This document shows, piece after piece, positions 29,502 to 61,217 of a stretch of 64,000 nt of DNA (position 1 is its first letter; every line of letters starts with the position of its first letter). The stretch is from positions 26,518,501 through 26,582,500 of the forward strand of contig OX327695.1 in NCBI GenBank assembly GCA_946807835.1, given 5' to 3'. The notes under the pieces were generated by a model, which was not told where the DNA came from, searched no databases, and worked only from the letters and a program-made list of their open reading frames with translations. The position numbers and the translations under genes are program-made. Origin of the DNA: Ailanthus altissimus (lineage: Eukaryota; Streptophyta; Magnoliopsida; Sapindales; Simaroubaceae).

Positions 29502-29518
29502 TGGACCAAGTGGGAGAA
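29502..29518 (+). other. Polypurine tract of copia element A
   Basis: Purine-rich GACCAAGTGGGAGAA directly abuts the 3' LTR and would prime plus-strand DNA synthesis. The AAGTGGGAGAATGTTAG context is typical of plant copia elements. Confidence 0.85.
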
Positions 29519-39592: not shown

Positions 39593-42447
39593 TGTCACGC
39601 CCCAGACCCAAAAGATCCGACACACGACATCACTTACATTCATTCACTGCATGTGCACTCATAAATAATATTACACAAAATTTTCAACTTTCATTCAACA
39701 CAGAAATCCTTAGCAAGTTGCTAGTAAGTTCAACACTAAAATCAACCATAACCTAACATATAAATATAAACTTCTCTTGACAATATTTAAACATTCATTT
39801 CAATTTCTTTCAGAATTATAGCAATTGAATTATGACTGGGACAATTATTAAACCGGAGATACGCAGAGTTTTCTCAGAGATTAACACTCTACTACGTCAC
39901 CAGTAGCAACTTTGTTACCGGGAGCCCAGAATATATCCATTGCAAATTCTTACTTAAAATCATCCAATAACCACACTTTATAAAACTTAAACCAAATCCA
40001 ATCCACACACAATGAAATAATACATAAGTATTTATTCAATAGGGACAAACCAAATATCCTATCCCACGTGTCCCCAAATGAAACACACAACAACCTAGCA
40101 ACTTAAGGAACCCAAGGAACAGCAGAAGCCTTGCCAAATCCGCTAAGCACACATGCACCTTATTTACCTGAAATCACCATAAACTATAATGAGTATAAAA
40201 CTCAGTAAGCATACTAGTTTTTCATATATCAAATACAAATACATATATGTACACAATGCATATGTATGATATGCTGTGATCAATCAAAATTATAATCTTA
40301 TCAAATCACATATCATGTAAGCGCTTACACATTCTTTCAAAACACATATTAGGAATACCATTACTCAACTACTACTTAGTAGGACTTACATATCACATAT
40401 CACATAATGAGCCAAATGTCACTCGTAGGTGACATACCGTATGAGAGGAATAGTACAAGTGAGGTCTTTAAATCACACATATATAACGCTTATGCCCGAA
40501 GGTAAAAGCCAAACCCTCACCCTGATCATCGGTGAGTCCTCTCACATGTACCTATACGCCACCACACGAATGTGATGACTCACACTTCCTTTAGGTACCA
40601 ATAGGATCCTCCCTACATACGGAACACATAACATATACCAATCCCGAAGGAAAGGCCACACATAAAGGCTCCACAAATCACATAAAATGCCTACTAAGTT
40701 AACAGTGAGTTCAAGTATCCTCAAATCACAAAATATTTCTCATGGACATATTACACTTCAAAAGGTTTCTTTGTTAAACGCATCTTATTTTGGAAAGCTC
40801 ACTTTCAAAAAAACACATGTATGTCCATGCTCAATGTCAATGCTCACATTCATAAACATATATTCACATTTCATATCAAAATATACTTTGACATATCATA
40901 AACATATTCTTAACCCCATTTACAAAATCATGCAAAACAATTATTATGTTTATTGTGATTCCAGTAGTAAGTCTAGTATACTTACCTCTTAACACTTTCA
41001 GCTACAAGGCTTAAATCTCCTTAACCTATCAATGGAGATTAATCCTTTCATAAGCCTCACAATTCACACAAAATACTTTAAATAGCTTACAAAATTATAC
41101 ACAATGCATTTATCACATCAAATTGGTATAAATATTTGGTTTCTCAAAACCTGTCATTCTGACCACTTACACTTAACAAAAATTTCTAATACATCAAATG
41201 ATGTCCAATTACTCCGAAATCAGAATATATCATTCTTGACTCATATATACTTCTTATATATGAATATTATATCAAAATTCCTACACAATCCATTCCATAC
41301 ACACCATCGAATCCAAACTACAAACCTGACAGGATCAAGATACTTACTGAACAGTATTCAATCTCCCAATTTTATAAAATCATATACTAACTCAAAAATT
41401 ATAAAACTACCACATAATTACTCTTGACACATATCTCAGTCCATGATAAATATTTTGCTTCCAAATAACTGCCAAAAGTATTTTAAAACTATTTTATTTC
41501 ATAACTTTAAAAATCTGTTAATCAAATACTACAATGAGCTGATACACTTTAGAAATTCATAACACTTCAACCACATTGATCCAAATTCTCAATTCCGAGT
41601 ATATCATATTAGACATATAAAATTATCATATTCCACAAATTCATAATTTTTAAAGATCATTCAGCAGGTCAAAAATTATTTTCCACTGTATCATACTGTT
41701 TACACAGGAAATTTCCAGAATTCCAGGGTCATTTTGGTAAATTCACTACAAATTCAATTTCCGAGATTTTCAGTCGATTCAAAGTCTCAGATGATCCTAA
41801 ACATGTCTAATTTCATATACTCAAAATTCAAAATCAGAATCGAATCACAACAATTTATAAAATTCCTAGATCAAGAGGTTATCCAGCAGAAATTCCATAA
41901 TTCATCATGATTTATCAAACTATCTTATAGATCATCATCAATTCTCACAACATCAAACGAAATACACATCAAATCCTTAATTATACATATTTCCAGAAAT
42001 CAAAACTTAAAGAAATTAACTTAATTAACACCAATAAATTGATAATTAGTTGTGATATACCTCTAAAGATCCAAAATTCCAATTTCTTCTTCTTTTTCTT
42101 CTTCTTCTTCTCTTTCTCTCTCCTTTATTTCTCTCTTCTCTCTCTAAAAATGGGTAGCTCGACAAAAATGAGAGAATTAGGGTTTTTAAAAGTGTATTTT
42201 TATACTAAGTGGTTAATTTTTGGTATTTACGAATTCACCCCCAAAACTTTCAAAGTATAACAATTTGGTCCCTAAAATAATTCCAAAGTCTTGCAAATAA
42301 ACCCAATACTAATAGTATATCCTTAACCTATAAAAACACTACTAATAACAATATATAAATCAAGGATCACCCACATACAAATAAAATACGTATATTTATA
42401 TATATAAATATACATATTCTTACCGGTTATGGATACTGGTTACTACA
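39593..42447 (-). repeat. LTR 1 (3' LTR of the array)
   Basis: 2855 bp. On the plus strand it starts TGTCACGCCCCAGACCC and ends GATACTGGTTACTACA. Diagnostic bases are C at 39699, G at 40014, A at 40106 and T at 40718. It contains a minus-strand TATA box and a long C/T-rich tract near 42086-42147. Confidence 0.92.
42177..42204 (-). promoter_or_regulatory. LTR promoter: TATA box plus telo-box
   Basis: On the minus strand TATAAAAAT (42196-42204) is followed about 10 bp on by AAACCCTAA (42177-42185), a telo-box typical of plant promoters near the start site. A GA-rich leader follows. This is a plausible promoter for the element's own transcript, and it is repeated in the other two LTRs at +6667 and +13334. 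Confidence 0.5.
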
Positions 42448-42461
42448 ATTCTCCCCTCCTT
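42448..42461 (-). other. Polypurine tract, first internal unit
   Basis: Minus strand AAGGAGGGGAGAAT directly abuts the LTR start TGTAGTAACC. It would prime plus-strand synthesis and fixes the element's orientation. Confidence 0.85.
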
Positions 42462-43332
42462 ATAAGAATTTCGTCCTCGAAATTCATAACTTAAGCACAT
42501 AGATGAGAATACTTAGATCTCATTTCTTATTCTCATTCTCAATTTTCCTTTTCAACTGTATAGTTTATTCATAAAACATTTACAAAGCAATCTTCCTTGT
42601 ATATAGGATTTGCTCATTGTGGTCCAAAATCCTAATAAATACTCATTCATATGTTAGATTATCTTTAAGTTGGCTCATAGCTGAGTATACGAGAGGAGTA
42701 CGAAACATATATCCATAAAATAAACATATGACACACATTATGGACTTATAAAATTATACACACATATTTTTATTCTTTTTTTTTATTCGTTCAATATTTA
42801 ATGGGTATCTATACACTTCACCTTTCATTCATTAAAGAATAACATAGATGTAGAATACTCATACTAATCTCTTACATAAAATTTTTAACTCTTCTGAAAA
42901 TTTTAATCCTTTCAACATATACTCATACGTCATAATATCATTCACTTCTTTGATATCATTCTAAAAAAATGTAGCATTTCTACGCAACTAAGTTGTCATT
43001 CAAATCAGAATATTGAAGGCATTATCTTAAATGATCAAAAATCAACTTCAATAAAATAAAATAAAAACCTTTAGTTCAATTGATTCTCAAACTATAGATC
43101 TCAACATTATATCTCTTACTCTAAATCTTTAAAAAAATAGTCCACCTTATTGGACATCATTTTCTCATTGAGACTGACATGTCTGCTTTTTCTAATATGC
43201 TCGATTTCAAATAGAAAAGATTCCACTAGCACAATTATTGCGATGGCAAATATGATTCTTTTAACTATTCCTTTAATGTCATTCACGTAAAAGGAAAGGA
43301 CAAAACGATTATTGATTTTCTTTCATAAAACT
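42462..43332. other. Internal non-coding region, unit 1
   Basis: AT-rich sequence between the polypurine tract and the TATA box of the 386-residue ORF. No coding frame on either strand. Confidence 0.5.
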
Positions 43333-43333
43333 C

Positions 43334-43342
43334 TATAAATAG
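43334..43342 (+). promoter_or_regulatory. TATA box of 386-aa ORF, unit 1
   Basis: TATAAATAG, 70 bp upstream of the ATG at 43404, the usual plant spacing for a start site about 30 bp downstream. Confidence 0.6.
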
Positions 43343-43403
43343 CCTAAATCTCATAATCACTTTTCTAGCAATAAATAAAACCAACCTTCTTACCATCTTC
43401 ATA

Positions 43404-44564
43404 ATGAATCCCATTATCATAACTCCTCATGTTCCTTTTTCTCCACCACAATTTCCAGACCTAATCAAAACCAGAACACTCCATTCCCGTGCCAAAGAAT
43501 TCATCAGACACTACGCCATCTTAGCAGTCCAAGAACACGGCCTCACAGTTCTTGGTGGCCCTTTGTTCAACTTAGAATACCCTTTCTTTCATCTGCACTC
43601 TTTTTTCCCATTTTCCCAATGGTCCAAACCTGTCCTTTACTTGTTATGGTACCTGTTGGATCTGTATACAATCGCCATGGAATTTCCATTACTTAGAACC
43701 CTCCAAAAATTAGAAAAATGTGATGAAAATCATCCAGCCCTGATTTTTCTCCAATGGTTTTACCCAAAGACATGGTGGATAACTAAATTTCAATACATGA
43801 TTGCAAACAACACAAATGCTGCAGTCCCCAAACAACATCTTTGGTCAGTCTTACTTTTCCAACGAAAGGGTATGATTATTTCTGATCATGAGATCCATTA
43901 TTACCCCACTGTTAAGGATTACTTCACATTTACCCTTTCACTAAAGGGATCGATTAAGCTCTGGCCTGAAGAAGTAATCCAACAAAAGAGAGAACTTGAA
44001 AGAATTCTTGCTCAGGAAAATCAAATAATTCCTCCGTCTGTTTGGATCTCCCCAGAAAATGCTGCGCCTTGGGAACAGGTTGAAGCTGACTTTGCAGAAG
44101 ACCTGAATTTTGCCAATATACTCAAATTCCAACAAAGACAAAAATATCATCTTTCACATCTCAGAAATACAAATTACTCTACCCACCATCACCATATCCC
44201 AAACATGACTTATTATGCCAGATACAGACAAGCAATGGATAACCTTCACCAATGGCCTCAGCTAGTTGTCCTGACAGAACCTACCCAATCTCAGCCAGTT
44301 GTCCCGACAGAACCTGACCAACGCCAACCCAATCTTGACTTATCCCTCTTTCAAGACTCACAACATTATCTAACCGACACCCAAATCCAAGAGGAAGCCA
44401 GCACATCCCTCATCCAGACCAGCTCACCTGCAGAAGATCAAGATATGGTAGACCCACATTCCACTCAGCCAGAGCCCTCATTCAATGCATGGGAACAACA
44501 ACTCCATAAGTTTCTCTCTCACGGATACGACACAGATGAAAGCGACCAGGGAGACTCATTTTAA
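43404..44564 (+). CDS. Unrecognised 386-residue protein, antisense to its retrotransposon (unit 1)
   Basis: Intact frame starting at an ATG in the context ATAATGAA. I do not recognise the family. The N-terminal ~25 residues are Pro-rich. Residues ~30-190 are compact and rich in aromatic residues, with a hydrophobic WYLLDLYTIAMEF segment and QWFYPKTWWITKFQYMI. A charged helix-like part follows (EEVIQQKRELERILAQE, ~195-211), then a His/Gln-rich stretch with HHHH. Two tandem 11-residue repeats (VVLTEPTQSQP, VVPTEPDQRQP) come next, and the end is acidic (DTDESDQGDSF). No transmembrane topology, protease, polymerase or zinc-finger signature is evident. An AATAAA lies at 44739-44744. The second copy encodes the identical protein. 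Confidence 0.8.
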   Translation: MNPIIITPHVPFSPPQFPDLIKTRTLHSRAKEFIRHYAILAVQEHGLTVLGGPLFNLEYPFFHLHSFFPFSQWSKPVLYLLWYLLDLYTIAMEFPLLRTLQKLEKCDENHPALIFLQWFYPKTWWITKFQYMIANNTNAAVPKQHLWSVLLFQRKGMIISDHEIHYYPTVKDYFTFTLSLKGSIKLWPEEVIQQKRELERILAQENQIIPPSVWISPENAAPWEQVEADFAEDLNFANILKFQQRQKYHLSHLRNTNYSTHHHHIPNMTYYARYRQAMDNLHQWPQLVVLTEPTQSQPVVPTEPDQRQPNLDLSLFQDSQHYLTDTQIQEEASTSLIQTSSPAEDQDMVDPHSTQPEPSFNAWEQQLHKFLSHGYDTDESDQGDSF

Positions 44565-45092
44565 CCTACATTGATGTTTCTGTTTTTCACAGAAATTAGA
44601 TCCGTGTTGTTCTATCACATCAAAGAGAGACTGACTACTGCTTTATCTTTATGTCAAGTGTGCTTTATCTTTCTTCATATCTGCTTTTAATCTATCGGCC
44701 AAAAATCAATGTTAAGACCACAAAAAATTTTTATAATTAATAAAGTTAATTTGGCCTCATGTCCAAAGTCCAGTTGGTAGCTTAAAAAGTCTTCAAGTCA
44801 TATATGCATTGTCGCCCATTAGTGCCAAAACGGCAAAGTCCCTAAATCCATAAAATAGGCATTTATTAACTTTTCTTAATCATCTTACCTAACTCATCAC
44901 GCTTCCGACACAATTTTATTACACTTACATATCAACAAATATTTATTCAAAATTTTGCGGCCTATTGTCCCTTATAGAATAATAAAGTAAAACTCATTTT
45001 TTTTTTCTTTTTACCTCACAAGAATTGAGAAAAACGTATATACTTGAACATACTTACACATATGCTCCACAGCTATTATCAATTTGTTTCTC
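44565..45092. other. Spacer between the two internal genes, unit 1
   Basis: Holds the 3' region of the 386-residue ORF (AATAAA at 44739) and the LOG promoter. A single A/T difference from unit 2 was seen at 44727 (51394 in unit 2). Confidence 0.55.
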
Positions 45093-45100
45093 TATAAATA
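45093..45100 (+). promoter_or_regulatory. TATA box of LOG gene, unit 1
   Basis: TATAAATA, 68 bp upstream of the LOG ATG. Same motif and spacing as for the neighbouring ORF. Confidence 0.6.
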
Positions 45101-45160
45101 CATTATTATTCCATCCTTATACAAACTCGAAAACATTCAAAGATTAGGGTGGGCATAACA

Positions 45161-45814
45161 ATGGAGGAAACCTCAGCTCGTCGATTCACAAAAATTTGTG
45201 TCTTTTGTGGATCTAACCCTGGGAATACTGAAGAGTTTACAAAAGTTGCAGAAAATCTTGGTAAGGTATTAGCTGAGCGAAATATACATCTAGTATATGG
45301 AGGAGGTAACCGTGGGTTAATGGGGTCTGTAGCAAAAGCAGCACACAATAATGGTAGTCGCGTTTTGGGTATCATTCCAAAACCTCTAGCTATTGAAAAT
45401 ATTGTAGGAAAAACAGTTGGGGATGAGTTACAAGTCTCATCTATGCACGAACGAATGGCTCAAATGCTTGGGCATGCAGATGCTTTCATAGCTCTACCAG
45501 GAGGTTTTGGGACCTTAGAGGAAATTTTTCAAATTGTCTCATGGGCACAATTACAAATCCACCAAAAACCCATTGGTTTGTTAAATGTTAATGGTTTTTA
45601 CGACGGGTTGATATCTTTCCTTGACTATGCAGCGGGAACACAATTCATCCCACTTCTAGCACGACGGATTCTTATTTCAGCTCCAACTGTTGATCAACTG
45701 ATTGATCAATTGCAGTCTTTTATTCCTCTGTCTAATCCAACATTGCATCAGTTAGATTGGTCTACTCATGACAGTCAGAAGAAGCGCAAAATAGACTTAA
45801 ATCTCACTCCGTAG
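45161..45814 (+). CDS. LOG: Intronless LOG: cytokinin riboside 5'-monophosphate phosphoribohydrolase (unit 1)
   Basis: LOG enzymes release active cytokinin bases from their nucleotides in one step, in cytosol and nucleus. The 217-residue protein covers the whole fold: ICVFCGSNPGN near the start, YGGGNRGLMGSVAKAA, the signature LPGGFGTLEEIFQIVSWAQ (catalytic PGGxGTxxE) and KPIGLLNVNGFYD. Arg of the substrate-binding HxR-x-x-x-M segment is present (MHERMAQM), although plant enzymes usually have RKAEM. The C-terminus adds KKRK and DLNLTP. Plant LOG genes normally have several introns; none is present, implying capture through RNA. ATG at 45161 is chosen over an upstream in-frame GTG. AATAAA lies at 45869-45874. 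The gene is antisense to the element. Identical in unit 2. Confidence 0.92.
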   Translation: MEETSARRFTKICVFCGSNPGNTEEFTKVAENLGKVLAERNIHLVYGGGNRGLMGSVAKAAHNNGSRVLGIIPKPLAIENIVGKTVGDELQVSSMHERMAQMLGHADAFIALPGGFGTLEEIFQIVSWAQLQIHQKPIGLLNVNGFYDGLISFLDYAAGTQFIPLLARRILISAPTVDQLIDQLQSFIPLSNPTLHQLDWSTHDSQKKRKIDLNLTP

Positions 45815-45868
45815 CCTCTATTGTATTTTTGTTGCTGCTATTGTTGTTGTGTTGTTGTTTTCCTTTTC

Positions 45869-45874
45869 AATAAA
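45869..45874 (+). terminator. Polyadenylation signal after LOG, unit 1
   Basis: AATAAA 55 bp after the stop codon, in a T-rich context, as in plant 3' ends. Confidence 0.5.
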
Positions 45875-46239
45875 AGTTGTTTCAATTGATGTCTTCAATA
45901 CTCTACTTCTCTATATTTTGTCATTGAGAAAATTATCTCAATTTGCTCTATCACATGCAAATTATCATTATAAGATATTCAACATCACTCTTACTAAGCA
46001 TATTAGTCATAACTTAAAAGAAAATCTAAATGGTAACATTAAGATCCACAAGGTACCATTATCCACAACAACAACAATCTTAGCAGCTCTTGGATACTGT
46101 GTCATCTTCACAAAATCATACAAAATTTAAGGAATATGTCAAACTTTTACACAACAAAGCTACAAATACAATCCTAAGGATTTGGCATCTGCTCGGTTCC
46201 CTTGACTCGACACTTAAAAGTCTACAGAATCATATCTTA
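45875..46239. other. Internal non-coding region between LOG and primer site, unit 1
   Basis: Short frames of 81-93 codons are present but have no family resemblance and overlap the LOG 3' region. Confidence 0.5.
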
Positions 46240-46251
46240 GCTCTGATACCA
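46240..46251 (-). other. Primer binding site, unit 1
   Basis: Minus strand TGGTATCAGAGC, complementary to initiator tRNA-Met, 8 bp from the LTR end (GTGACA). It shows that the element is transcribed on the minus strand. Confidence 0.88.
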
Positions 46252-46259
46252 ATAAAAGC

Positions 46260-49114
46260 TGTCACGCCCCAGACCCAAAAGATCCGACACACGACATCAC
46301 TTACATTCATTCACTGCATGTGCACTCATAAATAATATTACACAAAATTTTCAACTTTCATTCAATACAGAAATCCTTAGCAAGTTGCTAGTAAGTTCAA
46401 CACTAAAATCAACCATAACCTAACATATAAATATAAACTTCTCTTGACAATATTTAAACATTCATTTCAATTTCTTTCAGAATTATAGCAATTGAATTAT
46501 GACTGGGACAATTATTAAACCGGAGATACGCAGAGTTTTCTCAGAGATTAACACTCTACTACGTCACCAGTAGCAACTTTGTTACCGGGAGCCCAGAATA
46601 TATCCATTGCAAATTCTTACTTAAAATCATCCAATAACCACACTTTATAAAACTTAAACCAAATCCAATCCACACACAATAAAATAATACATAAGTATTT
46701 ATTCAATAGGGACAAACCAAATATCCTATCCCACGTGTCCCCAAATGAAACACACAACAACCTAGCAACTTAGGGAACCCAAGGAACAGCAGAAGCCTTG
46801 CCAAATCCGCTAAGCACACATGCACCTTATTTACCTGAAATCACCATAAACTATAATGAGTATAAAACTCAGTAAGCATACTAGTTTTTCATATATCAAA
46901 TACAAATACATATATGTACACAATGCATATGTATGATATGCTGTGATCAATCAAAATTATAATCTTATCAAATCACATATCATGTAAGCGCTTACACATT
47001 CTTTCAAAACACATATTAGGAATACCATTACTCAACTACTACTTAGTAGGACTTACATATCACATATCACATAATGAGCCAAATGTCACTCGTAGGTGAC
47101 ATACCGTATGAGAGGAATAGTACAAGTGAGGTCTTTAAATCACACATATATAACGCTTATGCCCGAAGGTAAAAGCCAAACCCTCACCCTGATCATCGGT
47201 GAGTCCTCTCACATGTACCTATACGCCACCACACGAATGTGATGACTCACACTTCCTTTAGGTACCAATAGGATCCTCCCTACATACGGAACACATAACA
47301 TATACCAATCCCGAAGGAAAGGCCACACATAAAGGCTCCACAAATCACATAAAATGCCTACTAAGTTAACAGTGAGTTCAAGTATCCTCAAATCACAAAA
47401 TATTTCTCATGGACATATTACACTTCAAAAGGTTTCTTTGTTAAACGCATCTTATTTTGGAAAGCTCACTTTCAAAAAAACACATGTATGTCCATGCTCA
47501 ATGTCAATGCTCACATTCATAAACATATATTCACATTTCATATCAAAATATACTTTGACATATCATAAACATATTCTTAACCCCATTTACAAAATCATGC
47601 AAAACAATTATTATGTTTATTGTGATTCCAGTAGTAAGTCTAGTATACTTACCTCTTAACACTTTCAGCTACAAGGCTTAAATCTCCTTAACCTATCAAT
47701 GGAGATTAATCCTTTCATAAGCCTCACAATTCACACAAAATACTTTAAATAGCTTACAAAATTATACACAATGCATTTATCACATCAAATTGGTATAAAT
47801 ATTTGGTTTCTCAAAACCTGTCATTCTGACCACTTACACTTAACAAAAATTTCTAATACATCAAATGATGTCCAATTACTCCGAAATCAGAATATATCAT
47901 TCTTGACTCATATATACTTCTTATATATGAATATTATATCAAAATTCCTACACAATCCATTCCATACACACCATCGAATCCAAACTACAAACCTGACAGG
48001 ATCAAGATACTTACTGAACAGTATTCAATCTCCCAATTTTATAAAATCATATACTAACTCAAAAATTATAAAACTACCACATAATTACTCTTGACACATA
48101 TCTCAGTCCATGATAAATATTTTGCTTCCAAATAACTGCCAAAAGTATTTTAAAACTATTTTATTTCATAACTTTAAAAATCTGTTAATCAAATACTACA
48201 ATGAGCTGATACACTTTAGAAATTCATAACACTTCAACCACATTGATCCAAATTCTCAATTCCGAGTATATCATATTAGACATATAAAATTATCATATTC
48301 CACAAATTCATAATTTTTAAAGATCATTCAGCAGGTCAAAAATTATTTTCCACTGTATCATACTGTTTACACAGGAAATTTCCAGAATTCCAGGGTCATT
48401 TTGGTAAATTCACTACAAATTCAATTTCCGAGATTTTCAGTCGATTCAAAGTCTCAGATGATCCTAAACATGTCTAATTTCATATACTCAAAATTCAAAA
48501 TCAGAATCGAATCACAACAATTTATAAAATTCCTAGATCAAGAGGTTATCCAGCAGAAATTCCATAATTCATCATGATTTATCAAACTATCTTATAGATC
48601 ATCATCAATTCTCACAACATCAAACGAAATACACATCAAATCCTTAATTATACATATTTCCAGAAATCAAAACTTAAAGAAATTAACTTAATTAACACCA
48701 ATAAATTGATAATTAGTTGTGATATACCTCTAAAGATCCAAAATTCCAATTTCTTCTTCTTTTTCTTCTTCTTCTTCTCTTTCTCTCTCCTTTATTTCTC
48801 TCTTCTCTCTCTAAAAATGGGTAGCTCGACAAAAATGAGAGAATTAGGGTTTTTAAAAGTGTATTTTTATACTAAGTGGTTAATTTTTGGTATTTACGAA
48901 TTCACCCCCAAAACTTTCAAAGTATAACAATTTGGTCCCTAAAATAATTCCAAAGTCTTGCAAATAAACCCAATACTAATAGTATATCCTTAACCTATAA
49001 AAACACTACTAATAACAATATATAAATCAAGGATCACCCACATACAAATAAAATACGTATATTTATATATATAAATATACATATTCTTACCGGTTATGGA
49101 TACTGGTTACTACA
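46260..49114 (-). repeat. LTR 2 (middle LTR, shared by two units)
   Basis: 2855 bp, nearly identical to LTR 1. Diagnostic bases: T at 46366, A at 46681, G at 46773, T at 47385. It carries the same TATA and telo-box arrangement near 48844-48871. Confidence 0.92.
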
Positions 49115-49128
49115 ATTCTCCCCTCCTT
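49115..49128 (-). other. Polypurine tract, second internal unit
   Basis: Same AAGGAGGGGAGAAT on the minus strand as in unit 1. Confidence 0.85.
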
Positions 49129-49999
49129 ATAAGAATTTCGTCCTCGAAATTCATAACTTAAGCACATAGATGAGAATACTTAGATCTCATTTCTTATTCT
49201 CATTCTCAATTTTCCTTTTCAACTGTATAGTTTATTCATAAAACATTTACAAAGCAATCTTCCTTGTATATAGGATTTGCTCATTGTGGTCCAAAATCCT
49301 AATAAATACTCATTCATATGTTAGATTATCTTTAAGTTGGCTCATAGCTGAGTATACGAGAGGAGTACGAAACATATATCCATAAAATAAACATATGACA
49401 CACATTATGGACTTATAAAATTATACACACATATTTTTATTCTTTTTTTTTATTCGTTCAATATTTAATGGGTATCTATACACTTCACCTTTCATTCATT
49501 AAAGAATAACATAGATGTAGAATACTCATACTAATCTCTTACATAAAATTTTTAACTCTTCTGAAAATTTTAATCCTTTCAACATATACTCATACGTCAT
49601 AATATCATTCACTTCTTTGATATCATTCTAAAAAAATGTAGCATTTCTACGCAACTAAGTTGTCATTCAAATCAGAATATTGAAGGCATTATCTTAAATG
49701 ATCAAAAATCAACTTCAATAAAATAAAATAAAAACCTTTAGTTCAATTGATTCTCAAACTATAGATCTCAACATTATATCTCTTACTCTAAATCTTTAAA
49801 AAAATAGTCCACCTTATTGGACATCATTTTCTCATTGAGACTGACATGTCTGCTTTTTCTAATATGCTCGATTTCAAATAGAAAAGATTCCACTAGCACA
49901 ATTATTGCGATGGCAAATATGATTCTTTTAACTATTCCTTTAATGTCATTCACGTAAAAGGAAAGGACAAAACGATTATTGATTTTCTTTCATAAAACT
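49129..49999. other. Internal non-coding region, unit 2
   Basis: Copy of 42462-43332, with no difference noticed by eye. Confidence 0.5.
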
Positions 50000-50000
50000 C

Positions 50001-50009
50001 TATAAATAG
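50001..50009 (+). promoter_or_regulatory. TATA box of 386-aa ORF, unit 2
   Basis: TATAAATAG, copy of the box at 43334. Confidence 0.6.
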
Positions 50010-50070
50010 CCTAAATCTCATAATCACTTTTCTAGCAATAAATAAAACCAACCTTCTTACCATCTTCATA

Positions 50071-51231
50071 ATGAATCCCATTATCATAACTCCTCATGTT
50101 CCTTTTTCTCCACCACAATTTCCAGACCTAATCAAAACCAGAACACTCCATTCCCGTGCCAAAGAATTCATCAGACACTACGCCATCTTAGCAGTCCAAG
50201 AACACGGCCTCACAGTTCTTGGTGGCCCTTTGTTCAACTTAGAATACCCTTTCTTTCATCTGCACTCTTTTTTCCCATTTTCCCAATGGTCCAAACCTGT
50301 CCTTTACTTGTTATGGTACCTGTTGGATCTGTATACAATCGCCATGGAATTTCCATTACTTAGAACCCTCCAAAAATTAGAAAAATGTGATGAAAATCAT
50401 CCAGCCCTGATTTTTCTCCAATGGTTTTACCCAAAGACATGGTGGATAACTAAATTTCAATACATGATTGCAAACAACACAAATGCTGCAGTCCCCAAAC
50501 AACATCTTTGGTCAGTCTTACTTTTCCAACGAAAGGGTATGATTATTTCTGATCATGAGATCCATTATTACCCCACTGTTAAGGATTACTTCACATTTAC
50601 CCTTTCACTAAAGGGATCGATTAAGCTCTGGCCTGAAGAAGTAATCCAACAAAAGAGAGAACTTGAAAGAATTCTTGCTCAGGAAAATCAAATAATTCCT
50701 CCGTCTGTTTGGATCTCCCCAGAAAATGCTGCGCCTTGGGAACAGGTTGAAGCTGACTTTGCAGAAGACCTGAATTTTGCCAATATACTCAAATTCCAAC
50801 AAAGACAAAAATATCATCTTTCACATCTCAGAAATACAAATTACTCTACCCACCATCACCATATCCCAAACATGACTTATTATGCCAGATACAGACAAGC
50901 AATGGATAACCTTCACCAATGGCCTCAGCTAGTTGTCCTGACAGAACCTACCCAATCTCAGCCAGTTGTCCCGACAGAACCTGACCAACGCCAACCCAAT
51001 CTTGACTTATCCCTCTTTCAAGACTCACAACATTATCTAACCGACACCCAAATCCAAGAGGAAGCCAGCACATCCCTCATCCAGACCAGCTCACCTGCAG
51101 AAGATCAAGATATGGTAGACCCACATTCCACTCAGCCAGAGCCCTCATTCAATGCATGGGAACAACAACTCCATAAGTTTCTCTCTCACGGATACGACAC
51201 AGATGAAAGCGACCAGGGAGACTCATTTTAA
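50071..51231 (+). CDS. Unrecognised 386-residue protein (unit 2)
   Basis: Second copy, exactly 6667 bp downstream of the first, encoding the identical 386-residue protein with no stop or frameshift. Identity at protein level between units shows that the duplication is very young; it does not by itself show selection. See unit 1 for domain description. Confidence 0.8.
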   Translation: MNPIIITPHVPFSPPQFPDLIKTRTLHSRAKEFIRHYAILAVQEHGLTVLGGPLFNLEYPFFHLHSFFPFSQWSKPVLYLLWYLLDLYTIAMEFPLLRTLQKLEKCDENHPALIFLQWFYPKTWWITKFQYMIANNTNAAVPKQHLWSVLLFQRKGMIISDHEIHYYPTVKDYFTFTLSLKGSIKLWPEEVIQQKRELERILAQENQIIPPSVWISPENAAPWEQVEADFAEDLNFANILKFQQRQKYHLSHLRNTNYSTHHHHIPNMTYYARYRQAMDNLHQWPQLVVLTEPTQSQPVVPTEPDQRQPNLDLSLFQDSQHYLTDTQIQEEASTSLIQTSSPAEDQDMVDPHSTQPEPSFNAWEQQLHKFLSHGYDTDESDQGDSF

Positions 51232-51759
51232 CCTACATTGATGTTTCTGTTTTTCACAGAAATTAGATCCGTGTTGTTCTATCACATCAAAGAGAGACTG
51301 ACTACTGCTTTATCTTTATGTCAAGTGTGCTTTATCTTTCTTCATATCTGCTTTTAATCTATCGGCCAAAAATCAATGTTAAGACCACAAAAATTTTTTA
51401 TAATTAATAAAGTTAATTTGGCCTCATGTCCAAAGTCCAGTTGGTAGCTTAAAAAGTCTTCAAGTCATATATGCATTGTCGCCCATTAGTGCCAAAACGG
51501 CAAAGTCCCTAAATCCATAAAATAGGCATTTATTAACTTTTCTTAATCATCTTACCTAACTCATCACGCTTCCGACACAATTTTATTACACTTACATATC
51601 AACAAATATTTATTCAAAATTTTGCGGCCTATTGTCCCTTATAGAATAATAAAGTAAAACTCATTTTTTTTTTCTTTTTACCTCACAAGAATTGAGAAAA
51701 ACGTATATACTTGAACATACTTACACATATGCTCCACAGCTATTATCAATTTGTTTCTC
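51232..51759. other. Spacer between the two internal genes, unit 2
   Basis: Copy of the unit 1 spacer, with one A-to-T difference at 51394. Contains AATAAA at 51406-51411 and the LOG promoter. Confidence 0.5.
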
Positions 51760-51767
51760 TATAAATA
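51760..51767 (+). promoter_or_regulatory. TATA box of LOG gene, unit 2
   Basis: TATAAATA, 68 bp before the second LOG ATG. Confidence 0.6.
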
Positions 51768-51827
51768 CATTATTATTCCATCCTTATACAAACTCGAAAA
51801 CATTCAAAGATTAGGGTGGGCATAACA

Positions 51828-52481
51828 ATGGAGGAAACCTCAGCTCGTCGATTCACAAAAATTTGTGTCTTTTGTGGATCTAACCCTGGGAATACTGAAG
51901 AGTTTACAAAAGTTGCAGAAAATCTTGGTAAGGTATTAGCTGAGCGAAATATACATCTAGTATATGGAGGAGGTAACCGTGGGTTAATGGGGTCTGTAGC
52001 AAAAGCAGCACACAATAATGGTAGTCGCGTTTTGGGTATCATTCCAAAACCTCTAGCTATTGAAAATATTGTAGGAAAAACAGTTGGGGATGAGTTACAA
52101 GTCTCATCTATGCACGAACGAATGGCTCAAATGCTTGGGCATGCAGATGCTTTCATAGCTCTACCAGGAGGTTTTGGGACCTTAGAGGAAATTTTTCAAA
52201 TTGTCTCATGGGCACAATTACAAATCCACCAAAAACCCATTGGTTTGTTAAATGTTAATGGTTTTTACGACGGGTTGATATCTTTCCTTGACTATGCAGC
52301 GGGAACACAATTCATCCCACTTCTAGCACGACGGATTCTTATTTCAGCTCCAACTGTTGATCAACTGATTGATCAATTGCAGTCTTTTATTCCTCTGTCT
52401 AATCCAACATTGCATCAGTTAGATTGGTCTACTCATGACAGTCAGAAGAAGCGCAAAATAGACTTAAATCTCACTCCGTAG
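51828..52481 (+). CDS. LOG: Intronless LOG (unit 2)
   Basis: Second copy, encoding the same 217-residue LOG protein as unit 1, with all catalytic motifs and no intron. If both copies are expressed, the locus supplies two extra doses of a cytokinin-activating enzyme. AATAAA at 52536-52541. Domain details are given at unit 1. Confidence 0.92.
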   Translation: MEETSARRFTKICVFCGSNPGNTEEFTKVAENLGKVLAERNIHLVYGGGNRGLMGSVAKAAHNNGSRVLGIIPKPLAIENIVGKTVGDELQVSSMHERMAQMLGHADAFIALPGGFGTLEEIFQIVSWAQLQIHQKPIGLLNVNGFYDGLISFLDYAAGTQFIPLLARRILISAPTVDQLIDQLQSFIPLSNPTLHQLDWSTHDSQKKRKIDLNLTP

Positions 52482-52906
52482 CCTCTATTGTATTTTTGTT
52501 GCTGCTATTGTTGTTGTGTTGTTGTTTTCCTTTTCAATAAAAGTTGTTTCAATTGATGTCTTCAATACTCTACTTCTCTATATTTTGTCATTGAGAAAAT
52601 TATCTCAATTTGCTCTATCACATGCAAATTATCATTATAAGATATTCAACATCACTCTTACTAAGCATATTAGTCATAACTTAAAAGAAAATCTAAATGG
52701 TAACATTAAGATCCACAAGGTACCATTATCCACAACAACAACAATCTTAGCAGCTCTTGGATACTGTGTCATCTTCACAAAATCATACAAAATTTAAGGA
52801 ATATGTCAAACTTTTACACAACAAAGCTACAAATACAATCCTAAGGATTTGGCATCTGCTCGGTTCCCTTGACTCGACACTTAAAAGTCTACAGAATCAT
52901 ATCTTA
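52482..52906. other. Internal non-coding region between LOG and primer site, unit 2
   Basis: Copy of the corresponding unit 1 region, including the LOG 3' end. Confidence 0.5.
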
Positions 52907-52918
52907 GCTCTGATACCA
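52907..52918 (-). other. Primer binding site, unit 2
   Basis: Minus strand TGGTATCAGAGC, 8 bp from the end of LTR 3. Confidence 0.88.
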
Positions 52919-52926
52919 ATAAAAGC

Positions 52927-55781
52927 TGTCACGCCCCAGACCCAAAAGATCCGACACACGACATCACTTACATTCATTCACTGCATGTGCACTCATAAAT
53001 AATATTACACAAAATTTTCAACTTTCATTCAATACAGAAATCCTTAGCAAGTTGCTAGTAAGTTCAACACTAAAATCAACCATAACCTAACATATAAATA
53101 TAAACTTCTCTTGACAATATTTAAACATTCATTTCAATTTCTTTCAGAATTATAGCAATTGAATTATGACTGGGACAATTATTAAACCGGAGATACGCAG
53201 AGTTTTCTCAGAGATTAACACTCTACTACGTCACCAGTAGCAACTTTGTTACCGGGAGCCCAGAATATATCCATTGCAAATTCTTACTTAAAATCATCCA
53301 ATAACCACACTTTATAAAACTTAAACCAAATCCAATCCACACACAATGAAATAATACATAAGTATTTATTCAATAGGGACAAACCAAATATCCTATCCCA
53401 CGTGTCCCCAAATGAAACACACAACAACCTAGCAACTTAGGGAACCCAAGGAACAGCAGAAGCCTTGCCAAATCCGCTAAGCACACATGCACCTTATTTA
53501 CCTGAAATCACCATAAACTATAATGAGTATAAAACTCAGTAAGCATACTAGTTTTTCATATATCAAATACAAATACATATATGTACACAATGCATATGTA
53601 TGATATGCTGTGATCAATCAAAATTATAATCTTATCAAATCACATATCATGTAAGCGCTTACACATTCTTTCAAAACACATATTAGGAATACCATTACTC
53701 AACTACTACTTAGTAGGACTTACATATCACATATCACATAATGAGCCAAATGTCACTCGTAGGTGACATACCGTATGAGAGGAATAGTACAAGTGAGGTC
53801 TTTAAATCACACATATATAACGCTTATGCCCGAAGGTAAAAGCCAAACCCTCACCCTGATCATCGGTGAGTCCTCTCACATGTACCTATACGCCACCACA
53901 CGAATGTGATGACTCACACTTCCTTTAGGTACCAATAGGATCCTCCCTACATACGGAACACATAACATATACCAATCCCGAAGGAAAGGCCACACATAAA
54001 GGCTCCACAAATCACATAAAATGCCTACTAAGTTAACAGTGAGTTCAAGTACCCTCAAATCACAAAATATTTCTCATGGACATATTACACTTCAAAAGGT
54101 TTCTTTGTTAAACGCATCTTATTTTGGAAAGCTCACTTTCAAAAAAACACATGTATGTCCATGCTCAATGTCAATGCTCACATTCATAAACATATATTCA
54201 CATTTCATATCAAAATATACTTTGACATATCATAAACATATTCTTAACCCCATTTACAAAATCATGCAAAACAATTATTATGTTTATTGTGATTCCAGTA
54301 GTAAGTCTAGTATACTTACCTCTTAACACTTTCAGCTACAAGGCTTAAATCTCCTTAACCTATCAATGGAGATTAATCCTTTCATAAGCCTCACAATTCA
54401 CACAAAATACTTTAAATAGCTTACAAAATTATACACAATGCATTTATCACATCAAATTGGTATAAATATTTGGTTTCTCAAAACCTGTCATTCTGACCAC
54501 TTACACTTAACAAAAATTTCTAATACATCAAATGATGTCCAATTACTCCGAAATCAGAATATATCATTCTTGACTCATATATACTTCTTATATATGAATA
54601 TTATATCAAAATTCCTACACAATCCATTCCATACACACCATCGAATCCAAACTACAAACCTGACAGGATCAAGATACTTACTGAACAGTATTCAATCTCC
54701 CAATTTTATAAAATCATATACTAACTCAAAAATTATAAAACTACCACATAATTACTCTTGACACATATCTCAGTCCATGATAAATATTTTGCTTCCAAAT
54801 AACTGCCAAAAGTATTTTAAAACTATTTTATTTCATAACTTTAAAAATCTGTTAATCAAATACTACAATGAGCTGATACACTTTAGAAATTCATAACACT
54901 TCAACCACATTGATCCAAATTCTCAATTCCGAGTATATCATATTAGACATATAAAATTATCATATTCCACAAATTCATAATTTTTAAAGATCATTCAGCA
55001 GGTCAAAAATTATTTTCCACTGTATCATACTGTTTACACAGGAAATTTCCAGAATTCCAGGGTCATTTTGGTAAATTCACTACAAATTCAATTTCCGAGA
55101 TTTTCAGTCGATTCAAAGTCTCAGATGATCCTAAACATGTCTAATTTCATATACTCAAAATTCAAAATCAGAATCGAATCACAACAATTTATAAAATTCC
55201 TAGATCAAGAGGTTATCCAGCAGAAATTCCATAATTCATCATGATTTATCAAACTATCTTATAGATCATCATCAATTCTCACAACATCAAACGAAATACA
55301 CATCAAATCCTTAATTATACATATTTCCAGAAATCAAAACTTAAAGAAATTAACTTAATTAACACCAATAAATTGATAATTAGTTGTGATATACCTCTAA
55401 AGATCCAAAATTCCAATTTCTTCTTCTTTTTCTTCTTCTTCTTCTCTTTCTCTCTCCTTTATTTCTCTCTTCTCTCTCTAAAAATGGGTAGCTCGACAAA
55501 AATGAGAGAATTAGGGTTTTTAAAAGTGTATTTTTATACTAAGTGGTTAATTTTTGGTATTTACGAATTCACCCCCAAAACTTTCAAAGTATAACAATTT
55601 GGTCCCTAAAATAATTCCAAAGTCTTGCAAATAAACCCAATACTAATAGTATATCCTTAACCTATAAAAACACTACTAATAACAATATATAAATCAAGGA
55701 TCACCCACATACAAATAAAATACGTATATTTATATATATAAATATACATATTCTTACCGGTTATGGATACTGGTTACTACA
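52927..55781 (-). repeat. LTR 3 (5' LTR of the array)
   Basis: 2855 bp. Diagnostic bases: T at 53033, G at 53348, G at 53440, C at 54052. It differs from LTR 1 at three and from LTR 2 at two of the noticed positions. It abuts SABATH exon 3 on the right. Confidence 0.92.
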
Positions 55782-55904: not shown

Positions 55905-56320
55905 CGTTGGATCATAAACTTGATCCGGGAGTCTAAACCCAAAATCAATTAAATTGGAGTCCAAATCCATAATCAAGGTCCAAAACTAATAACCTTCTAC
56001 CTAGAATCTTTTAGGGTATGGTAATTAAGCATGTGAATAATTTAGAAGGATGAAAAAGAATGAAGAAGAATGAGGTGTATGTATGGTTATTGTAATTTTG
56101 GATTAGTTTATTTGTGTGGTGTAGGATTATTCTTAAGTAGTATAAATACTCCTCTCCATTTTAGTTTAGGTATCAAGAAAAATTAAAAGCTTCTAAGTGA
56201 GTGAAGAAGCAAACTCTAATAAGAGTGAGTTGTAGTATCTTATTTTTGAATGAGAGTGTTCTTGTAATATTTGTTTGAGTTTGAATAAAAGTTGTTTATG
56301 TGAGTGTTTCATTTCTAACA
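55905..56320 (+). repeat. Copia element B 5' LTR
   Basis: 416 bp. Begins CGTTGGATCATAAAC (expected TG mutated to CG) and ends ATTTCTAACA. It has a TATAAATA-like promoter segment near 56140. Confidence 0.9.
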
Positions 56321-56323
56321 AAG

Positions 56324-56334
56324 TGGTATCAGAG
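56324..56334 (+). other. Primer binding site of copia element B
   Basis: TGGTATCAGAG, 3 bp after the 5' LTR, complementary to initiator tRNA-Met. Confidence 0.9.
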
Positions 56335-56470
56335 TAAGTTGGAAAGTATACATTATTGCATATCAAATTGAAGGTCTCGATGAGAGGAATCCAACGCCAC
56401 CAAATTCTCCCCAATCTGAGTTCTGACGCGCCCCCACGCGCCGCCGGAAGACTGCTGCCAGAGAATCGAG

Positions 56471-56647
56471 TTGACTCATCGAGTTGAGCCGAGTTAGAGC
56501 ATTAATCGAGCCGCCAAGCCAAGTTGACCGAGCCGTAAGCCTGTTGACCGAGCCATCCAAGCGAGTTGACTGAGCCGTCAAAGTCATTGACCGTTGACCA
56601 GGTTAGGGTTGACTTTGACCGTTGACCAAAAATTAAAAATTTTGACC
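56471..56647 (+). promoter_or_regulatory. W-box cluster in the leader of copia element B
   Basis: Ten TTGAC[C/T] cores lie on the plus strand within 177 bp, starting at 56471, 56524, 56544, 56566, 56587, 56594, 56609, 56615, 56622 and 56642. TTGACC/T is the core of the W-box bound by plant WRKY factors. The cores partly belong to a GTTGACCGAGCC-like minisatellite. Less than one would be expected by chance on one strand in this length. Confidence 0.6.
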
Positions 56648-56726
56648 AGGTTTGTCCCAAGGTTTTTCGGCATTCCGGATTCATCCGTGCAATCGAATTT
56701 TGCAAATTCTCATTATATTGAGAGAT

Positions 56727-58418
56727 ATGGCAAATGGTATGACACCATTCCAAGTTCCGACACTCAACAACAACAACTACGACAATTGGAGTATCAAAAT
56801 AAAAGCACTTCTTGGATCACAAGATGTGTGGGATATCATACAGAAAGGCTATAACGAGCCTGCGGATGATGCTGCTTTTACACCAGATCAAAAAACAACT
56901 TTGAAGGATTCAAGAAAGAGAGACAAGAAGGCTCTCTATCTCATCTATCAAGCATTAGATGATGATGGCTTTGAAAAGATTTCGAGTGCAAGCTCTAGCA
57001 AGGAAGAGTGGGAGAAGCTGCAAACCTTTTACAAAGGATCTGAGCAAGTAAAGAAGGTCCGTCTCCAAACATTAAGAGGTGAATTCGAATCCTTACACAT
57101 GAAAGTATCTGAGTCTATTTCGGATTATTTCTCAAGAGTAGTAACTGTTTCTAATCAATTAAAAAGAAATGGTGAAAAGTTAGAAAATGTGAGGATAATA
57201 GAGAAGATACTCCGTTCGTTGGATCCCAAATTTGAGCACATCGTCGTGACGATTGAAGAAACTAAAGACTTGGAAGAAATAACGATCGAGCAACTTCAAG
57301 GATCATTGCAAGCATACGAAGAGAAGCATAAGAAGAAGCATGGGTTTACTGAGCAACTCCTCAAGCTGCAACTCAAGGATATGCATGAAAGCCAACGCAA
57401 TGATAGAAACCAACGTGGTCGAGGCAGAGGTAGAGGCCATGGACGAGGTGGAAGTCGCGGTTATGGACGAGGCTGGAATTATAACAACAACAATTCCAAC
57501 AACTATGAGAAAGGAGAAAGCTCAACACGAGGCCGTGGAAGAATCAATCCGAACTCAAGGTATGAAAAATCTCAAGTTCGATGTTATAATTGTCAGAAGT
57601 TTGGGCATTATACTTCAGAATGTAGAGCTCCCAACAATAAAATTGAGAAGAAGGTCAACTACGTAAAGGAGAAGACAGATGGCAAAGAAACTCTTCTTTT
57701 AGCACGAAAGGAAACTGATGGTGGACAAGCAAATTCCTGGTATCTTGACAGTGGTGCAAGCAATCACATGTGTGGAAGGAAAGACATGTTCGTGGAGCTA
57801 GACGAGTCAGTAAACAGAAATGTTTCGTTTGGAGATGATTCCACAATAGCAGTGAAAGGGAGAGGTAACATCCTTATCCGTTTGAAAGATGGGAGACATC
57901 AGTTTATTTTCAATGTCTACTATGTGCCCAATATGAAAAGTAACATCTTGAGTGTAGGGCAACTGTTAGAGAAAGGTTATGATATTCATATGAAGGATTA
58001 TAATCTTTCTATAAAAGATGATAAGAATAACTTCATTGCTAAAGTGCCGATGTCAAAGAATAGAATGTTCTTGATCAACATACAAAATGATGTTGCAAAG
58101 TGCCTGAAAGCTTGCTACAAAGATACATCATGGCTTTGGCATCTTCGATTTGGGCATCTCAATTTTGGAGGTCTAGAGCTGCTATCTAAGAAGGAGATGG
58201 TGAAGGGACTACCTCGCATCAACCATTCTGACCAGCTTTGTGAAGGGTGTCTAGTCGGGAAACAATTCAGAAAAAGCTTTCCAAAGGAGTCAAAGACAAG
58301 AGCCAAGAAACCACTCGAGCTCATCCATACCGATGTGTGTGGACCGATCAAGCCAAGCTCTCTCGGTAACAGTAACTATTTTCTTCTCTTCATTGATGAT
58401 TTTTCAAGAAAAACCTAG
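56727..58418 (+). pseudogene. Copia element B gag, protease and N-terminal integrase
   Basis: The ATG at 56727 starts the gag (MANGMTPFQVPTLNNNNYDN); the earlier in-frame start is not gag-like. Following in order: a capsid domain, an Arg/Gly-rich linker near 57410-57480, a CCHC knuckle CYNCQKFGHYTSEC near 57580, protease DSGASNHM near 57748, the integrase zinc domain (WHLRFGHLNF near 58132; CEGCLVGK near 58240) and the first integrase Asp in HTDVCGP near 58326. The frame ends in a TAG at 58416 where family members have Trp (G-to-A). Confidence 0.88.
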
Positions 58419-60823: not shown

Positions 60824-61217
60824 ACTTGATCCATTATGGGAGCCTAAACCCAAAATCAATCAAATTGGAGTCCAAGTCCATAATCAAGGTCCAAAACTAT
60901 TAACCTTCTACCTAAAATCTTCTAAGGTGTGGTAATTAAGCATGTGAATAATTTGGAAGGATGAAGAAGAATGATGTGTATGGTTATTGTAATTTTGGAT
61001 TGGTTTATTTGTGTGGTGTAGGATTGTTCTTAAGTAGTATAAATACCCCTCCCCATTTTAGTTTAGGTATTGAGAAAAATTAAGAGCTTTTAAGTGAGTG
61101 AAGAAGCAAATTCTAATAAGAGTGAGTTGTAGTATTTTGTTTTTGAATAAGAGTGCTCTTGTAATATTTGTTTGAATTTGAATAAAAATTATTTGTGCGA
61201 GTGTTTCATTTCCAACA
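60811..61217 (+). repeat. Copia element B 3' LTR
   Basis: 407 bp, TGTTGGATCATAAAC to ATTTCCAACA. It is shorter than the 5' LTR because of small indels, including a repeat-slippage difference in GAAGAATGA. Confidence 0.9.

Follow-up and report, generated by a model that had tools for sequence, protein, structure and literature searches.

How a retrotransposon that encodes neither gag nor pol comes to keep a cytokinin-activation (LOG) gene intact, and what that gene may do for it, is the question raised by a locus of Ailanthus altissimus. The window analysed here is a stretch of 64,000 nucleotides of contig OX327695.1, and a preliminary description, made from its letters, had placed at positions 39593-55781 a non-autonomous LTR element without gag and pol, carrying an intact, intronless LOG gene in antisense to the primer binding site and the polypurine tract, with a TATA box and a polyadenylation signal of its own.

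A tandem dimer without gag or pol

All of these statements were borne out. The borders of LTRs and internal regions agree with the coordinates given and resolve the region as LTR-internal-LTR-internal-LTR, with the element on the minus strand and LOG on the plus strand (Table 1). The primer binding site, TGGTATCAGAGC, pairs with the 3' terminus of initiator tRNA-Met. The polypurine tract lies in a stretch, NFEDEILIRRGE, which we take to resemble the end of chromovirus (Tekay) pol; a DNA pattern derived from this remnant gave 0 matches in viral_contigs. There is no perfect target duplication at this locus, since the outer flanks (GAAGC/GAAGT) agree at 4 of 5 bases only. No stop-to-stop ORF of at least 140 aa was found on the minus strand of the element at this locus, and the 12 ATG-started ORFs of at least 100 aa between 38000 and 58000 are all on the plus strand, so that gag and pol are absent. 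The only genes of the element are two antisense, intronless ones, LOG and an ORF of 386 aa, with equally distant TATA boxes.

Table 1. Features of the element in the window (positions counted from the first letter of the window).
Feature	Position	Strand	Remarks
LTR 1 (3' LTR in the element's orientation)	39593..42447	-	2855 bp; plus strand reads TGTCACG...TACTACA
Internal region 1	42448..46259	-	3812 bp
Polypurine tract	42448-42461	-	within short stretch 42448..42484 reading NFEDEILIRRGE
TATA box of 386-aa ORF	43334..43341	+	TATAAATA; 70 bp upstream
386-aa ORF, copy 1	43404..44564	+	antisense to element; no domain found
TATA box of LOG	45093..45100	+	TATAAATA; 68 bp upstream of ATG
LOG, copy 1	45161..45814	+	217 aa; intronless; single uninterrupted frame; antisense to element
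C-terminal tail of LOG	45779..45811	+	KKRKIDLNLTP; basic patch KKRK and EAR-like DLNxxP (DLNLTP)
AATAAA 3' of LOG	45869..45874	+
Primer binding site	46240..46251	-	TGGTATCAGAGC; 8 bases from LTR
LTR 2	46260..49114	-	common to both tandem units
Internal region 2	49115..52926	-	1 difference from internal region 1
386-aa ORF, copy 2	50071..51231	+
LOG, copy 2	51828..52481	+	protein identical to copy 1
LTR 3 (5' LTR in the element's orientation)	52927..55781	-

The structure in the window is not due to chance, because LTR-internal-LTR recurs in all 20 other copies that were fetched in full, each with its LTR pair (99.6-100% identical within a copy); the LTRs thus belong to the LOG-bearing element and not to an unrelated one flanking a host gene, an alternative that the preliminary description had raised. 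Perfect 5-bp target duplications, all different, were present in 18 of these copies, the primer binding site TGGTATCAGAGCTA in 20 and the NFEDEILIRRGE stretch in 19. A TATA box was found at -67/-68 of LOG in 19 of them, AATAAA within about 110 bp of the LOG stop in 16, and a TATAAA box at -70 of the 386-aa ORF in 17. With LTRs, primer binding site, polypurine tract, target duplications, dispersed copies and no gag-pol, the element is a non-autonomous LTR retrotransposon, and the window holds a tandem dimer of a recently active, many-copy family.

Further copies elsewhere, which the preliminary description had expected, were abundant: the union of three genome searches with LOG comprised at least 390 distinct places, and at least 407 on 32 contigs once copies chosen through the leader (see below) were added. 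The matched stretch was free of stops in 357 of the 390 listed places and interrupted in 33. In the first search each of the 150 listed matches spanned the whole gene with 98-100% identity, and only two contained a stop; in the second and third, stops occurred in 6/150 and 28/150 listed matches. Three LOG lineages, dS 0.55-1.9 apart and each with a full-length LOG frame, are present in the host genome; beside the lineage of the window element they comprise at least two many-copy ones, with a tail of the same kind. A recent single capture of LOG at the window locus is ruled out by the number of places and by the three lineages. Reevesia, Xanthoceras, Paulownia and Populus have proteins related to the element LOG, so the capture is at least old. 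Queries with LOG and the 386-aa ORF found no relatives in viral_contigs; LOG against genome_contigs returned one bacterial LOG (L001), which was taken as the outgroup. When host intron-containing LOGs were sought, element-type copies dominated the matches listed and no host LOG was found among them.

Purifying selection on LOG

The preliminary description had also asked for signs of purifying selection across copies, and these are present. For a neutral expectation of 2.46:1 nonsynonymous (N) to synonymous (S) changes, the variants in 61 LOG sequences were 6N:27S when shared by several copies and 32N:19S when singletons (Fisher p = 1e-4). Over 41 sequences, including 40 copies picked by LOG similarity, dN/dS was 0.09, and the copies thus chosen had a median of 3 nonsynonymous differences, where 36 were expected (for a single copy P is about 7e-13, or 4e-9 when multiplied by the 6210 candidates). 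A second sample was chosen with non-coding leader DNA, which gave 40 matches, 17 of them already in the LOG list (including the window's two); 20 copies were taken from the 23 outside that list, a sample that leans against conservation. In these 20 copies and the window, with L060 and L062 included by alignment, shared variants were 5:12 and singletons 26:9 N:S (p = 0.003), and dN/dS was 0.34 (0.19-0.64) in the 18 in-register copies plus the window, without L060 and L062. The contrast thus persists in leader-chosen copies, which rules out that the signal is an artefact of sampling by LOG similarity. Between the three lineages of the host genome dN/dS was 0.12-0.28, with dS near saturation (up to 1.9), and recent pairs in the other two lineages gave 0.90 and 0.49, values based on few changes and indicating weak constraint. 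Purifying selection has preserved LOG during the multiplication of the family, with the catalytic residues conserved.

For the 386-aa ORF, dN/dS was 0.31 (0.21-0.45), an interval that includes the lowest of the other five frames (0.40-0.85). Its variants were 43N:40S when shared and 99N:38S as singletons (p = 0.003), and 9 of 40 copies contained stops. It had no match in PDB, Pfam or NCBIfam, and the protein database held a single relative, P0121, within an E limit of 0.001. Both this ORF and the conserved tail of LOG described below had been missed in the preliminary description.

The LOG protein and its tail

The product of LOG belongs to the Lysine_decarbox/TIGR00730 fold family, with 134 bits (4.7e-39) against PF03641 (cut-off 27) and 182.7 bits against TIGR00730 (cut-off 96.35), and scores 124.7, below the cut-off of 300, against the prokaryotic equivalog NF058542. 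It holds PGGFGTLEE, an instance of the PGGxGTxxE motif, as well as the catalytic residues Arg98 and Glu121. Both residues were kept in 40/40 copies picked by LOG similarity; among relatives thinned at 85% identity Arg98 was present in 31/31 and Glu121 in 29/31, with Asp in the other two. Glu121Lys was seen in 2 of 18 in-register copies picked by leader DNA, and the start codon was lost in 3 of 61 sequences. A strict regular expression for the catalytic motif missed 24 of 120 relatives, at least two of them (P0018 and P0104) merely through Ile at a variable position, and these misses are not a tally of dead copies. The putative activity of the protein is that of LOG, the release of free cytokinin from its nucleotide.

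EAR motifs, LxLxL or DLNxxP, recruit TOPLESS. A motif of this kind ends the element protein and was found in 99 of its 120 nearest relatives, 95 of which also have the basic patch, but in 0 of 120 LOG1/LOG3-type proteins; the 21 relatives without it include a basal subclade of Xanthoceras and metagenome sequences. Such motifs are short and related sequences in these counts are not independent; shuffled tails would yield 10.8 of 110 by chance against 96 of 110 observed, and after thinning at 85% identity 27 of 31 relatives retained the motif. In those 27 tails Leu was invariant at -5 and -3 and present at -1 in 26, while positions -4 and -2 were variable. The basic patch and the EAR-like tail together suggest a nuclear protein that could recruit TOPLESS.

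Related elements and the possible role of LOG

Steinbauerova et al., in Genetica in 2011, reportedly described two elements of Athila-like type that resemble LOGL4. A LOG/YgdH domain is found in LTR-retrotransposon consensuses of two Citrus species and, under a weaker filter, of Populus, according to PMC9289625, which cites Steinbauerova 2011. LOG in Ty3/gypsy elements is thus already in print, contrary to the preliminary description, to which no such family was known. Those consensuses were built from regions located through reverse transcriptase (PMC9289625); like them the window element is an LTR retrotransposon with a LOG-type gene, but it lacks reverse transcriptase and two antisense genes replace gag-pol. 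Two Populus LOG proteins, which may be copies from such elements, fall in the same clade as the window LOG and have the same type of tail.

Non-chromoviruses, Athila among them, do not use a tRNA-Met primer binding site, which rules out an Athila-like identity; such a site is also compatible with Ty1/copia (PMC6317226). Together with 5-bp duplications (18/20 copies, and 4/5 bases at the window locus) its presence in 20/20 copies agrees with a chromovirus of the Tekay type; reverse transcriptase, integrase and chromodomain were not found in the window element, where the short NFEDEILIRRGE remnant is all that is left, and the element is not assigned to that lineage. Having no gag or pol, it does not belong either to the autonomous gypsy elements that bear an antisense extra ORF. 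According to PMC7264820 and PMC11963269, Grande gene23, RIRE2, Retand ORF4 and PvRetro13 have antisense ORFs conserved across copies, as here, and that of Grande has its own promoter. These ORFs, however, sit between pol and the 3' LTR, mostly in elements that have gag-pol, and code for TRP28, SMC or unknown proteins, not for a hormone-metabolism enzyme. Orchid gypsy elements carry an m6A demethylase, active in vitro, and resemble the LOG family in retaining a host-type enzyme over rounds of replication, but are Ogre-related, have gag-pol and encode an enzyme that acts on RNA (PMC9289625).

Large retrotransposon derivatives (LARDs) have long LTRs around a few kb of internal sequence without gag or pol, described as non-coding, and depend on a partner. 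The window element shares these traits, but differs in its two genes under protein-level selection. The literature searched, to which most subscription papers do not belong, held no report of a gag/pol-free LOG element, of selection on LOG or of the shared tail.

LOG most likely has an accessory role; the protein is probably nuclear and may bind TOPLESS, with a mode of action that we infer. On balance it seems probable to us that the family, lacking gag and pol, is copied by a partner while its selected LOG serves as a nuclear, TOPLESS-recruiting effector that helps its own lineage. The minus-strand RNA would be packaged and copied by Gag and Pol of an autonomous partner, probably of chromovirus (Tekay-like) type, and LOG would be expressed from its own promoter to the benefit of the lineage that carries it. 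Through its basic patch and its tail (LxLxL, here DLNxxP) a cytokinin-nucleotide hydrolase may have turned into an element-encoded nuclear effector, acting through nuclear cytokinin release, repression, or both. More tentatively, and with rather less than even confidence, the same could hold for a LOG clade carried by LTR retrotransposons of eudicots: the enzyme would have gained an EAR tail as well as a nuclear signal, TOPLESS would be recruited or cytokinin made at chromatin in favour of the element, and one lineage would have spread here gag/pol-free beside at least two others. How a diffusible enzyme encoded by a non-autonomous element could be under selection is difficult to see, except through action in cis, in a few source copies or via the host.

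The conserved catalytic residues, the conserved TATA box and the purifying selection would also suit an ordinary cytosolic cytokinin-activating enzyme. The element would then gain from higher cytokinin and more cell division in those meristem cells or precursors of the germline in which it is active, and the tail would be incidental or weakly functional. The frequency of the tail in the clade, its lack in LOG1/3-type proteins and its near-constant Leu positions make this reading rather unlikely. That LOG is a passenger, taken from the host in the distant past and of no use to the element, with a signal of selection reflecting host-gene history, appears improbable: LTR elements are known to transduce host genes (PMC7264820), the start codon or the catalytic Glu is missing from some copies, and the recent pairs of two other lineages are little constrained, but nonsynonymous changes are strongly depleted among shared variants and close to the neutral level among singletons, and all three diverged lineages retain the full-length frame.

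We consider it very improbable that the segment acts as RNA, antisense to the genomic RNA or as small RNAs against host LOGs, with the protein irrelevant. The orientation of LOG fits such a role, and antisense ORFs have been proposed to regulate through dsRNA (PMC7264820); however, 36 of 50 variable LOG sites (sample picked on LOG similarity) are at third codon positions, a pattern accounted for by selection on the protein but not by selection on RNA. The small-RNA effect on host LOGs, held equally possible in the preliminary description, would in particular be less likely because the window LOG is 45-47% identical, as protein, to six aligned host-type (LOG1/3) proteins. An assembly or duplication artefact at the window locus is hardly credible: the units are nearly identical (1 difference between internal regions; 3, 2 and 3 between pairs of LTRs), but each LTR has private differences, 14 same-strand LOG pairs 6.37-6.70 kb apart occur among the 150 copies listed, and tandem elements with a shared LTR are reported in sunflower (PMC11728184).

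Agrobacterium is a familiar case of mobile DNA that carries hormone genes. Here a retrotransposon family maintains a cytokinin-activation enzyme by selection, in a genome with at least 390 LOG places. As the matches of the relatives are many and dispersed, transposon copies are probably among the annotated LOG-like genes of Reevesia and Xanthoceras, and perhaps of Paulownia and Populus. The family raises the questions of whether a transposon manipulates hormone signalling or transcriptional repression in its host, and of how selection maintains a trans-acting gene in an element unable to replicate by itself.

Structure of the tandem element

An LTR retrotransposon lacking gag and pol, with an antisense LOG gene in each internal region, had been observed in the preliminary description, and the LTR and internal coordinates together with the ORF map confirmed it. 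The stretch 39593-55781 comprises two LTR retrotransposon units in tandem, with the middle LTR common to both. Differences between the LTR pairs amount to 3, 2 and 3 positions, transitions only, and private differences are present in each of the three LTRs; the outer flanks read GAAGC and GAAGT (4/5 bases the same). The minus strand adjoining LTR 2 reads GCTTTTAT and then TGGTATCAGAGC, which gives the element its minus orientation; we take TGGTATCAGAGC to be the complement of initiator tRNA-Met. At the opposite end of the internal region, AAGGAGGGGAGA directly precedes the LTR on the minus strand, and this tract is overlapped by a short minus-strand stretch, NFEDEILIRRGE, presumably the end of a Tekay-type pol. 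A DNA pattern derived from NFEDEILIRRGE gave 0 matches in viral_contigs, and inspection of ORFs in the sequence revealed no gag or pol in the element. According to the accessible text of PMC6317226, tRNA-Met primes Ty1/copia elements and most chromoviruses, not non-chromoviruses. The Ty1/copia-type element that adjoins the LOG element on the right is the older of the two.

Coordinates of features in the window
Feature	Position	Strand	Remarks
LTR 1	39593-42447	-	
Internal 1	42448-46259	-	
LTR 2	46260-49114	-	common to both units
Internal 2	49115-52926	-	
LTR 3	52927-55781	-	
386-aa ORF, copy 1	43404-44564	+	ORF call
386-aa ORF, copy 2	50071-51231	+	ORF call
LOG, copy 1	45161-45814	+	ORF call
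Ty1/copia-type element	55906-61217		gag-pol ORFs by eye; terminal repeats 88% identical
Second copia-like element	23431-29949		damaged, by eye; terminal 431-bp repeats 95.6% identical
ORFs resembling a pentatricopeptide-repeat protein	1626-3657		by eye

Each internal region carries two plus-strand ORFs, the 386-aa ORF and LOG. A plus-strand TATAAATA was found at just two places in the internal region, 70 bp before the start of the former and 68 bp before that of the latter. Of 20 further copies, 19 have a TATA box at -67/-68 of LOG (the start codon was not located in the remaining one) and 17 have one at -70 of the 386-aa ORF, positions kept despite divergence of the intergenic spacer (89-99% identity to that of the window); AATAAA lies downstream of the LOG stop codon in 16 of these 20 copies. 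The LOG product matched PF03641 (4.7e-39) and, in PDB, Arabidopsis At2g37210 and At5g11950, which we take to be LOG3 and LOG8. The 386-aa ORF had no match in Pfam, NCBIfam or PDB and a single protein-database relative, P0121 (source label lgn). It contains another EAR-like word, LDLSL, which could be due to chance, and an in-frame 33-bp repeat that varies among copies.

Copy number and mobility

In the 939-Mb genome, the window LOG gave 6210 first-look candidates, which are not equivalent to copies; the best 150 scored were all full length, with 98-100% identity, and 148 of them were stop-free. A distant relative (P0007) and a canonical LOG3-type protein (P0124) each located at least 150 places. 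Pooling the three queries yielded at least 390 LOG places, or at least 407 when 20 copies chosen by their non-coding leader were added, on 32 contigs, all of these counts being lower bounds; a stop was present within the matched stretch in 33 of the 390 (hand count). With the 386-aa ORF as query, 2612 candidates were obtained, and the best 107 scored all aligned over residues 1-386. LOG was found at the expected side and distance in at least 49 of these 107, a lower bound because the LOG places listed are incomplete. The 366-bp leader gave 1249 candidates, and each of the best 40 scored, including both window copies, was 100% identical.

Twenty full-length copies were taken from the top of the LOG match list, leaving out tandem pairs. 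Two LTRs flank the internal region in all 20, and 18 (L018, L020 and L022 among them) show perfect 5-bp target duplications, all different; in L019 4/5 bases agree, and L026 is the copy without resolved flanks. Identity between LTRs was 99.6-100% (in L020, from a 1992-bp part), and the insertions are therefore recent. Among the best 150 LOG matches there were 14 same-strand pairs (28 copies) at 6.37-6.70 kb, the spacing of the element, so that tandem units recur in the family; these pairs were judged by spacing, the shared LTR itself being observed in the window pair. Tandem elements with shared LTRs are described in the accessible part of PMC11728184.

The genome holds three LOG lineages: that of the window, the P0004 type (73-74% identity to the window LOG) and the P0089 type (60-62%). 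The latter two occupy many places.

Selection on the two antisense genes

In the first 40 copies, dN/dS of LOG was 0.09, a value that is biased because they were picked by LOG similarity. The median copy differed from the window by 11 synonymous and 3 nonsynonymous changes, with 36 nonsynonymous expected. A neutral LOG combined with this biased choice was rejected as an explanation, since the deficit survives multiplication by the 6210 candidates. In the leader-chosen sample (17 of the 40 matches were already in the LOG list, and 20 of the other 23 were fetched), dN/dS was 0.34 (0.19-0.64), one copy had an internal stop and 2/18 carried Glu121Lys, with loss of the catalytic Glu. The best test of selection was the contrast between shared and singleton variants, for which neutrality predicts a nonsynonymous:synonymous ratio of about 2.5:1. 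In 61 sequences, variants in at least three copies were 6 nonsynonymous and 27 synonymous, vs 32 and 19 for singletons (p = 1e-4); in the 20 leader-chosen copies plus the window the ratios were 5:12 and 26:9 (p = 0.003). Changes after insertion are therefore near neutral, while those passed on by copying have been filtered. Between lineages, dN/dS was 0.12-0.28, at dS of 0.55-1.9, partly near saturation. Against selection count the loss of the LOG start codon in 3/61 sequences, that of the catalytic Glu in 2/18 copies, and the recent pairs within the two other lineages (dN/dS 0.90 and 0.49, few changes).

Selection at the protein level also acts on the 386-aa ORF, which played no part in choosing the 20 full copies. 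Its dN/dS was 0.31 (bootstrap 0.21-0.45) vs 0.40-0.85 for five other frames, the lowest of which falls inside the bootstrap interval, and shared variants (43N:40S) differed from singletons (99N:38S; p = 0.003). Compared with the window, 21/40 copies (hand count) have 33 bp inserted in frame; frame-breaking indels occurred in 4/40 and stops in 9/40.

The LOG clade and its C-terminal tail

Reevesia pubescens contributed 39 of the 120 nearest database proteins listed (hand count of names), with 17 chromosome labels; Xanthoceras, Paulownia and Populus were also represented. Three annotated Xanthoceras proteins (P0002, P0003, P0005) consist of two partial LOG copies fused, perhaps gene models spanning neighbouring copies. 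In a tree of 60 proteins with tails removed (44 relatives, 15 canonical LOGs, limited to LOG1/3 type and AtLOG8, and one bacterial), the relatives of the window LOG fell on one side of a branch (98/95). Their C-terminus ends in a basic patch and an LxLxL motif, which is replaced by DLNxxP in proteins of the window type. Both motifs resemble the EAR motifs that recruit TOPLESS; a basal subclade is devoid of them. The EAR-like motif was present in 99/120 relatives listed vs 0/120 LOG1/3-type proteins, and together with the basic patch in 95/120. Among the 110 relatives of 205-222 aa it occurred in 96, while shuffled tails would give about 11, and it was kept in 27/31 after thinning at 85% identity. 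In those 27 tails Leu is invariant at -5 and -3 and present at -1 in 26, positions -4 and -2 being variable. All 40 LOG-chosen copies end in KKRKIDLNLTP, and four of the five pieces of the other two lineages (L070-L074, on C18, C4, C16, C14 and C3) in IDLTLRL or FDLTLRL; L073 stops short of the tail.

Steinbauerova 2011 is said to describe two Athila-like elements with similarity to LOGL4. The preliminary description knew of no described family with LOG, but the accessible text of PMC9289625 reports a YgdH/LOG domain in LTR-retrotransposon consensuses from Citrus sinensis and C. clementina, and also from Populus trichocarpa under a weaker filter, in stated agreement with Steinbauerova 2011. 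LOG in gypsy elements is therefore already known, and the earlier interpretation stands in part, as regards a mobile LTR family with a selected LOG. For Populus, 13 LOG genes are given in the part of PMC3866579 available. Antisense extra ORFs are described in PMC7264820 and PMC11963269, LOG not being named in the text accessible in either. No title or abstract retrieved on LOG and the EAR motif, or on TOPLESS/EAR motifs and retrotransposons, describes such a case and, as far as our searches show, there is no published report of the gag/pol-free form at such copy number, of selection on LOG or of the tail.

Selection acts on both of the antisense protein-coding genes carried by this recently mobile family of gag/pol-free LTR elements. 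Gag and Pol would be supplied by a partner element, and LOG probably acts as an accessory protein with conserved catalysis, for which its sequence points to a role that is probably nuclear and co-repressor-binding.
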